Origin: Tubiluchus corallicola
Taxonomy: Eukaryota; Priapulida; Priapulimorpha; Priapulimorphida; Tubiluchidae
Length of the DNA stretch: 64,000 nt
Direction of reading: 5' to 3'
Assembly: GCA_030141605.1 (NCBI GenBank)
Contig: JAQGDQ010000018.1
Span: 248,001 to 312,000 of the forward strand
Of the stretch, positions 25,501 to 28,908 are shown one piece after another (position 1 is the first letter of the stretch; each line of letters opens with the position of its first letter). The notes beneath the pieces were generated by a model that was not told the DNA's origin, searched no databases, and was given only the letters and a program-made list of their open reading frames with translations. Made by a program: the position numbers and the translations under genes.

Positions 25501-28500
25501 AAGTTGGAGCACCTCTTTAAGCTTGGCAGGTCACTTCATAACATATTATTTGAAATTTTTTGATAAGTTACCTTTCTATAAATAAGATTGGATGTGAAAC
25601 TCAAAATCTGCTAGTAACATGCTATGATGCCTATTGACACAGGCTGATGTAGTGCCACTTTTTGTCCACCCTGGGTTCCTGGTAGTTTTGTTAATATTGA
25701 ATATTTGATATATCACAATTGTCACTTGTTGTTTGCTATTGCCTAGTTAGTTTTCATCAATCAGTCTCCTTAAAATCTGCAATATTCCTAACGTGCATAA
25801 GAAATTAATAATTTAGTTGCTCGTTACCGCTAATGTTACCTCTTCAGGGTGATATGCATCCACAATTTGGGTAAATGTGGCAGCACATCTCCACAGCAAC
25901 ACTGTTAAAGCATTTTATAGTTTTGTTTTTCAGTTAGTTACAAAACTAATTGATTAAATGCTCAGATCTTCCTGATAACATAATTGTTTGATTGATGATA
26001 ATGGTTGTAGTGTTTCATGTTCACTTCAATTTTGTCTTCGCAGAGGAAATTGTTAAATGACAACTGTATTTTTTCAGAATCTAGTGAGGAATCGAATGGA
26101 AGTCCACCATCTAAAGTTGACATCAAACTAAAGGGAAGTTCTATTAGGACACATGGGATGCAAAATGGTGAGAGTATCACTGTGAATATTAACCCAGATA
26201 GTTTACCTGATATTAAGCCTCATGAGCTATGTGACATAAAGGAAATCAGTCATTGTGCATCTGTGCAGAATCTGAATGTAAATCACAGCATTCCAGCCGT
26301 TGAGATTAAAACTGATAAAGCTTGCGATATTAACGCAGACACTAGTTGTGTGTCTCCATTACCACTAAACGAAAGCTTCAAAATCAATGACAAGTGCGCT
26401 GTCAATAGTTATGTTTCTGGGCTAACATTGAGCTCTGACGTTAAACTCAACATGGAAACAGCTAATGAAAATGAACTTAGCAGAGTGGAAGTAAGTAGAG
26501 TTCCTGCATGTAACAATCATAATACATTCGATGTAAACACAAGCTTCCATAAGCAAGAACTAGTCAAAAATACCGACGTTAATTTCGATACTGGAAGTCT
26601 TAAAAATGAAATTTGCACAGTGGACGGAAGTACAATACATAGTAACACTCCTGATATGTTCGATACACAAACAAGTGATATTTGGGCTTCTAAGCAGCAT
26701 TTAAACAACAATTCCGATGTCCAACCCAATAGTAGTGTAGAAGTAAGCACGATTCCTCAGACGGAGGTGCCACATTTGAGCCTAAACGTAATTTCCAGAA
26801 GTGACAACATGAATAATAGTGTTGCTGTACCACCTCAACCAAAAGACTTTAAAGCGAATAATGACTTTCTTCAGGATGGCAGTCCGAGTAACAGATGTTT
26901 GCCACCATTACAGATGCTGCCAAGAAATAACATAATTTTTGGACATTTAAAGTCAACCCCAATTTTAAATGACAACTGTATTTTTTCAGAATCTAGTAAG
27001 GAATCGAATGGAAGTCCACCATCTAAAGTTGACATCAAACTAAAGGGAAGTTCTATTAGGACACATGGGATGCAAAATGGTGAGAGTAGAACTGTGAATA
27101 TTAACCCAGATAGTTTACCTGAAATTAAGCCTCATGAGCTATGTGACATAAAGGAAATCAGTCATTGTGCATCTGTGCAGAATCTGAATGTAAATCACAG
27201 CATTCCAGCCGTTGAGATTAAAACTGATAAAGCTTGCGATATTAACGCAGACACTAGTTGTGTGTCTCCATTACCACTAAACGAAAGCTTCAAAATCAAT
27301 GACAAGTGCGCTGTCAATAGTTATGTTTCTGGGCTAACATTGAGCTCTGACGTTAAACTCAACATGGAAACAGCTAATGAAAATGAACTTAGCAGAGTGG
27401 AAGTAAGTAGAGTTCCTGCATGTAACAATCATAATACATTCGATGTAAACACAAGCTTCCATAAGCAAGAACTAGTCAAAAATACCGACGTTAATTTCGA
27501 TACTGGAAGTCTTAAAAATGAAATTTGCACAGTGGACGGAAGTACAATACATAGTAACACTCCTGATATGTTCGATACACAAACAAGTGATATTTGGGCT
27601 TCTAAGCAGCATTTAAACAACAATTCCGATGTCCAACTCAATAGTAGAGTAGAAGTAAGCACGATTCCTCAGACGGAGGTGCCACATTTGAGCCTAAACG
27701 TAATTTCCAGAAGTGACAACATGAATAATAGTGTTGCTTTACCACCTCAAGCAAAAGACCTTAAAGCGAATAATGACTTTCTTCAGGATGGCAGTCCGAG
27801 TGACAGATGTTTGCCACCATTACAGATGCTGCCAAGAAATAACATAATTTTTGGACATTTAAAGTCAACCCCAATTTTAAATGACAACTGTATTTTTTCA
27901 GAATCTAGTAAGGAATCGAATGGAAGTCCACCATCTAAAGTTGACATCAAACTAAAGGGAAGTTCTATTAGGACACATGGGATGCAAAATGGTGAGAGTA
28001 GAACTGTGAATATTAACCCAGATAGTTTACCTGAAATTAAGCCTCATGAGCTATGTGACATAAAGGAAATCAGTCATTGTGCATCTGTGCAGAATCTGAA
28101 TGTAAATCACAGCATTCCAGCCGTTGAGATTAAAACTGATAAAGCTTGCGATATTAACGCAGACACTAGTTGTGTGTCTCCATTACCACTAAACGAAAGC
28201 TTCAAAATCAATGACAAGTGCGCTGTCAATAGTTATGTTTCTGGGCTAACATTGAGCTCTGACGTTAAACTCAACATGGAAACAGCTAATGAAAATGAAC
28301 TTAGCAGAGTGGAAGTAAGTAGAGTTCCTGCATGTAACAATCATAATACATTCGATGTAAACACAAGCTTCCATAAGCAAGAACTAGTCAAAAATACCGA
28401 CGTTAATTTCGATACTGGAAGTCTTAAAAATGAAATTTGCACAGTGGACGGAAGTACAATACATAGTAACACTCCTGATATGTTCGATACACAAACAAGT

Positions 28501-28908: not shown

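Follow-up and report, generated by a model that had tools for sequence, protein, structure and literature searches.

How a gene for a membrane enzyme came to end in three consecutive copies of a nearly kilobase-long coding unit is the question raised by a locus of Tubiluchus corallicola. Within the window (the whole stretch of DNA analysed, 64,000 nt of contig JAQGDQ010000018.1, whose numbering is used throughout), a 912-bp unit is repeated three times head-to-tail between 26053 and 28783. When the window was compared with itself at an offset of 912, the 50-bp blocks between 26051 and 27800 were 90-100% identical; the other blocks listed had 16-38% identity, those beyond 27800 being out of register owing to a deletion in copy 3. 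The array was beyond the reach of the tandem-repeat scan, whose longest period was 500. The plus-strand frame from 26011 to 28908 runs for 965 codons without a stop, and none of 20,000 simulated 912-bp sequences with the dinucleotide make-up of the unit was open across 304 codons in the given frame.

In the alignment of the copies, 10 of 912 positions distinguish copy 1 from copy 2 and 13 of 900 distinguish copy 1 from copy 3; between copies 2 and 3 there are 10 mismatches in 900 positions. A core of 514 bp (unit positions 160-673, corresponding to 26212-26725 in copy 1) is common to all three without any difference. The self-comparison and the copy alignment confirm an earlier, sequence-only reading of this DNA, which had described three in-frame copies of one unit, a frame open throughout the array and a central stretch of ~500 bp identical by eye. 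It had also given every copy 304 codons, which is right for copies 1 and 2 but not for copy 3, left with 300 by a 12-bp deletion, and had placed the array at 26053 to 28782, where the start stands but, with the shared TTAAATG included, the end moves to 28783.

The gene was modelled by joining reading frames, splice signals and phase, and comprises seven or eight exons from 4382 to 28908 (Table 1). All phases agree in the eight-exon version (M1), whose product has 1301 residues; the seven-exon version (M2) joins exon 6 directly to the last exon. Under both, the array is coding and lies within one exon, and the repeat accounts for ~70% of the predicted protein. Head-to-tail units in frame inside one exon are the arrangement of a long-unit coding tandem repeat, the single exon resting here on the gene model. 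The protein encoded by exons 1-6 matched the Pfam DHHC family (PF01529; E 8.9e-32, 110.4 bits against a cut-off of 28.7), bearing out the earlier identification of a DHHC enzyme gene, and all eight PDB sequences found at E <= 0.01 in a sequence search were palmitoyltransferases, with ZDHHC9 as the best (6.3e-16). The TTxE motif is present as TTYE at residue 241, aligned to TTNE of ZDHHC9, and four hydrophobic stretches can be seen by eye in the model protein. We take the gene to be ZDHHC1/11-like from the likeness of its motifs to the human proteins, its SRRNGxSWPPHP, HLLCFHI and TTYEYI stretches presumably corresponding to those of human ZDHHC1/ZDHHC11.

Table 1. Positions in the window of the modelled exons, the repeat copies and the sequence features discussed
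Feature	Position	Strand	Description and basis
Exon 1	4382-4564	+	Assigned start codon, first hydrophobic segment; phases consistent; end least certain
Exon 2	7821-7996	+	Second hydrophobic segment, first Cys pair of zinc-binding domain
Exon 3	8618-8719	+	Catalytic DHHC; open reading frame containing exon 3 matches PF01529 (Pfam, E 2.5e-16)
Exon 4	13803-13921	+	Third hydrophobic segment; gene model
Exon 5	16949-17074	+	Fourth hydrophobic segment, HLLCFHIFL
Exon 6	23371-23705	+	TTYE motif, cytosolic tail begins; ZDHHC9 alignment passes through motif
Candidate exon 7	24368-24401	+	34 nt; M1 only; phases suit acceptor 26078
Last exon	26044-28908 (M2); start at 26078 (M1)	+	M2 joins exon 6 directly; each start in frame with its partner exon
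Repeat unit copy 1	26053-26964	+	912 bp, 304 codons; self-comparison, copy alignment
Repeat unit copy 2	26965-27876	+	912 bp; mosaic, 5' part copy 3-like and 3' part copy 1-like
Repeat unit copy 3	27877-28783	+	12-bp deletion near 28703; terminal shared heptamer included
TTAAATG, left side of 7-bp junction microhomology	26053-26059	+	Copy alignment
TTAAATG, right side of 7-bp junction microhomology	28777-28783	+	Copy alignment
3' splice-site-like 25-mer TTAAATGACAACTGTATTTTTTCAG, copy 1	26053-26077	+	Before AATCTAG; copy alignment, splice scoring
25-mer TTAAATGACAACTGTATTTTTTCAG, copy 2	26965-26989	+	Translated LNDNCIFS..
25-mer TTAAATGACAACTGTATTTTTTCAG, copy 3	27877-27901	+	Copy alignment
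Donor-like ATG/GTGAGA (ATGGTGAGA), copy 1	26165-26173	+	Score 4.53; joins 26990 and 27902 in frame under M1 and M2
Donor-like 9-mer ATGGTGAGA, copies 2 and 3	27077-27085, 27989-27997	+	Identical to copy 1
Putative exchange interval in copy 2	27761-27791	+	Unit positions 797-827; variant order
AATAAA, possible polyadenylation signal	29427-29432	+	Sole one in 28909-29700

Other genes and repeats lie further along the window. On the minus strand, 32661-43475 probably holds a multi-domain granulin gene with its repeated modules in separate open frames, the two frames searched both matching Pfam Granulin (E 6.3e-15 and 6e-14), and frames at 55868-61069, also on the minus strand, match SH2 (E 4.8e-6) and PTB (E 4.1e-13 and 2.8e-6) in a tensin-like order, the gene presumably being a tensin. 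A 69-bp unit occurs in two tandem copies with 100% matches at 48407-48545, just upstream of frames at 48696-50585 that resemble a non-LTR reverse transcriptase by eye (two of these frames, searched against Pfam, gave no match at E 0.01), and an AT-rich 72-bp unit occurs in two tandem copies with 92% matches at 59967-60107.

The borders of the 912-bp array bear on its origin. Exactly TTAAATG is shared by the opening of copy 1 and the close of copy 3, and past the heptamers the flanks are dissimilar and not duplicated, as judged by both self-comparison and copy alignment. At the local base composition, the probability that a random junction shares at least 7 bp is ~8e-4. The heptamer fits the scar expected of a single tandem duplication driven by microhomology. 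Two TTAAATG heptamers would have lain ~0.9 kb apart, and a break or a switch of template between them would have duplicated the intervening sequence a single time and in frame. The resulting pair would then have diverged at its outer ends until a later out-of-register exchange produced three copies with the arrangement A-(B/A)-B, and exchange or conversion would hold the middle identical.

The step from two copies to three can be followed in the order of the variants. With neighbouring differences merged and the deletion taken as one, we listed by hand 16 variable events from the copy alignment. Copy 2 is like copy 3 at unit positions 34, 125-126, 159, 787 and 796; copies 1 and 3 are alike at 674, 684 and 775, and copies 1 and 2 at all variable places from position 828 onward, save 838. 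Of the eight events to the left of unit position 797, five group copy 2 with copy 3 and the other three set copy 2 apart from both its neighbours; to the right, seven of the eight pair copies 1 and 2, and the remaining one separates copy 1 from copy 2 within the copy 3 deletion. That the five and the seven should separate so cleanly has a probability of 1.3e-3 by chance, calculated after the pattern had been seen. Such an order fits one later unequal exchange, from A-B to A-(B/A)-B.

The distribution of the variants along the unit is just as uneven. Under a uniform spread of the 16 events, the variant-free gap at 160-673 has a P of 1.5e-5; when only the 12 A/B events are considered the gap extends from 160 to 786 (P 1.5e-5, or 0.0046 with the terminal cluster excluded and five events left). 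A/B events amount to 1.9 per 100 bp at unit positions 1-159, 0 at 160-786, 4.9 at 787-827 and 8.2 at 828-912, the last 85 bp of the unit, where copy 3 is separated from copies 1 and 2 by seven events. Short arrays with internal exchange typically show this combination of divergent ends and a uniform middle. The mosaic order and the invariant core are signs of the between-unit exchange that marks a coding tandem repeat, and they support the unequal exchange or conversion put forward in the sequence-only reading, whose patchwork of variants shared between copies proved exact site by site. Its description of the whole tail as recent is partly contradicted, since the end of copy 3 differs from the other two copies by 8.2 events per 100 bp. 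Because the copy ends have diverged, the first duplication need not be recent; judging from the variants, it may be old, and youth may be confined to the third copy and the homogenised interior.

The start of the last exon depends on which of two acceptors is used. We scored splice sites with a generic matrix not trained on this organism, in which the acceptor before 26044 reached 5.77 (99.7 percentile of AG sites) and that before 26078 reached 1.69 (92.5 percentile), the latter not being outstanding because an AG before 26269, inside copy 1, scores 2.87. The acceptor and donor of candidate exon 7 stand at the 99.2 and 97.4 percentiles. With the same matrix, the acceptors of exons 5 and 6 (66.8 and 62.7 percentiles of AG sites) and the weak donor of exon 1 (-6.46, 34.2 percentile of GT sites) were negative, and the acceptors of exons 2-6 span from -2.67 to 5.12, so that these scores serve as a guide only. 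The codon composition of 26044-26076 is -2.58, with lower values in 3% of coding and 23% of open intron windows; that of exon 7 is -0.92, with lower values in 9% and 58%, respectively. Splice scores side with M2 and codon composition with M1. Exon 7 joined to 26044 leads to a stop after 363 residues. The M2 product also has 1301 residues, exon 7 and 26044-26077 both being 34 nt long; exchanging 24368-24401 for 26044-26077 preserves both frame and protein length. As a matter of judgement, we lean towards M2.

The identical 25-mers raise another reading of the array, in which the cell would set the number of units in the tail (three, two, one or close to these) by splicing. In all three copies the 25-mer ends in CAG ahead of AATCTAG, as a 3' splice site could. 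Under M1, each unit would then consist of 25 nt of intron 7 and 887 nt of exon 8 with its own 3' splice site, and use of the first, second or third acceptor would give three, two or one unit, the predicted products of 1301, 997 and 693 aa all being free of internal stops. This route requires the additional 34-nt exon, and under M2 direct use of 26990 or 27902 breaks the frame, with a stop after 364 residues. A second route would splice from the donor-like site early in one copy to the acceptor-like site at the head of a copy further on. It would take out 822 or 1734 nt and is in frame under both M1 and M2 (1027 or 723 aa).

The donor 9-mer of this second route is the same in all copies, and its score of 4.53 exceeds those of the seven donors of the gene model. 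Three donors in copy 1 score above 3 (after 26167, 26490 and 26742), with ATG/GTGAGA the highest. The donor after 26167 is in phase 1 and joins the repeat acceptors in frame; introns inside the array from the donors after 26490 or 26742 were rejected, since both have phase 0 and, joined to a repeat acceptor, would put the sequence out of frame. An in-frame fit by itself has, however, a one-in-three chance. The stretch 26044-26076 is intron-like in composition (-2.58, in the lowest 3% of coding windows), as splicing at the first repeat acceptor would have it, but the acceptor before 26044 outscores that before 26078 (5.77 vs 1.69 bits) and is in frame with exon 7 skipped, and the repeat acceptor is also beaten by the AG before 26269 (2.87). 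We consider it unlikely that the array is adjusted in this way, though slightly less so because the internal-donor route is in frame under both models. Splicing of this kind would be compatible with an origin by microhomology-driven duplication. If it were true, a splice-set unit number would mean a coding tandem repeat buffered or tuned at the RNA level, the shortest M1 product would have the single-unit layout presumed ancestral, and the splice sites would illustrate how a gene can put up immediately with a large duplication of its coding sequence.

At the protein level, the repeat would have lengthened a Ser/Asn-rich tail, in which no fold is recognised, from roughly 450 residues to roughly 1060 (the tail after TTYE has 1057 residues with three units and 449 with one). 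The unit contains 12.5% Ser, 11.8% Asn and nine Cys in 304 residues, falls barely on the ordered side by charge-hydropathy (0.439 against 0.427), and showed no internal sub-repeat when compared with itself by BLASTP. Pfam gave nothing above the curated cut-offs for the tail; the nine rows obtained were all below them and were taken as chance (best BD_b_sandwich, E 0.0011), and the only row of the PDB sequence search with the tail (E 0.91) was rejected as chance-level. A single-sequence AlphaFold2 model of the copy 2 unit had a mean pLDDT of 32.8, with all 304 residues below 50; being a low-confidence model built from one sequence without relatives, it says nothing for or against disorder.

The sequence-only reading suggested that the tail may act as a multivalent binding segment, and such a tail might have been selected, three copies being favoured since each unit would bind a partner. 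The unit contains one PHELCD, which suits the TRAF6-type pattern PxExx(aromatic/acidic), but that pattern also arises in 17.6% of 5000 shuffled units. The tail has no family or structure match above cut-off and the unit no confident fold, so that multivalent binding found no support here. Residues 198-412 of human ZDHHC11 are reported to associate with TRAF6 and promote its oligomerisation (PMC8417235); tails in the ZDHHC1/11 family can therefore bind partners. The codon changes between the copies look neutral, which argues against selection for multivalency: 12 of the 15 differing codons are replacements and three are silent, where mutation alone predicts 20-24% silent, a proportion that looks as expected without selection. 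The nine codons compared from copy 1 (26086 to 26890) are all replacements, and each of the three silent changes falls within the end of copy 3 that has diverged. The former could hint at selection for change, in a sample too small for a claim. Divergence that is accelerated, relaxed or positively selected is reported to be general among new protein repeats (PMC5120217). Considering the tail and its codons together, a selected multivalent function appears highly doubtful.

Just as improbable, in our estimate, is that the assembly expanded one or two real copies into three. Long, near-identical tandem units are a known hazard and are reported to be miscounted with short reads (PMC6868369). However, the copy pairs differ at 10-13 sites, copy 3 is further marked by its 12-bp deletion, the flanks beyond the heptamers are not duplicated, and a 7-bp microhomology is characteristic of genuine duplications and, in our judgement, not long enough for an assembler to join on. 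In a DNA search of the 343.5-Mb, 2344-contig assembly, the array matched one place among the best-scoring candidates, itself, with no second locus. The three-copy count holds as far as the assembly is trustworthy, and the assembled number could be wrong. An origin of the unit from a transposon or a shared domain was rejected, as the rest of the window held no convincing relative (best tblastn E 1.9; blastn 0.048 over 21 nt), viral contigs gave one stretch fitting a pattern and no relatives by tblastn, and the genome DNA search, among its best-scoring candidates, placed the array at one locus.

The reading that we prefer, and regard as fairly probable, is that of a long-unit coding tandem repeat, formed by duplication and then exchange and probably near neutral, which a ZDHHC1-like palmitoyltransferase gene carries in its last exon. 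The catalytic part is unaltered, and the growth of the tail was therefore probably close to neutral and tolerated; copy number would then be expected to differ between individuals. One locus displays the microhomology scar, the mosaic middle copy and the divergence of the edges, and the likely passage from a single coding unit through two to three is therefore readable in it. The tail of a signalling-related enzyme has been more than doubled with its catalytic part untouched. The locus makes a good textbook case.

The literature search, only partly aimed at this point, found no report of a repeat in a ZDHHC1 tail in titles or abstract openings among the matches listed. The protein resembles ZDHHC1/ZDHHC11 in its DHHC domain but differs from them in its tail, since the vertebrate members are not known to have a long tail repeat. 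Yeast megasatellites and other long-unit coding repeats are likewise made of tandem units of more than 100 bp in reading frames, mostly in many-copy cell-wall genes, whereas here a membrane enzyme gene carries three copies. Filaggrin (FLG) has many repeat copies in an unrelated protein, unlike the three copies, homogenised core and mosaic middle copy of T. corallicola. FLG is nevertheless the nearest known case, with near-kilobase units head-to-tail in one exon: the published account describes 972-975-bp units in its exon 3, varying in number between species, and its authors infer birth-and-death evolution and consider gene conversion unlikely (PMC5225520). In tandem exon duplication with alternative terminal exons, as described in PMC9013439, the duplication is also intragenic and splice sites can be copied, but the copies of T. 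corallicola are fused in one open frame and no intron is inferred between them. Set beside these systems, the array is a clear example of an already known type of event, a further long-unit coding tandem repeat.
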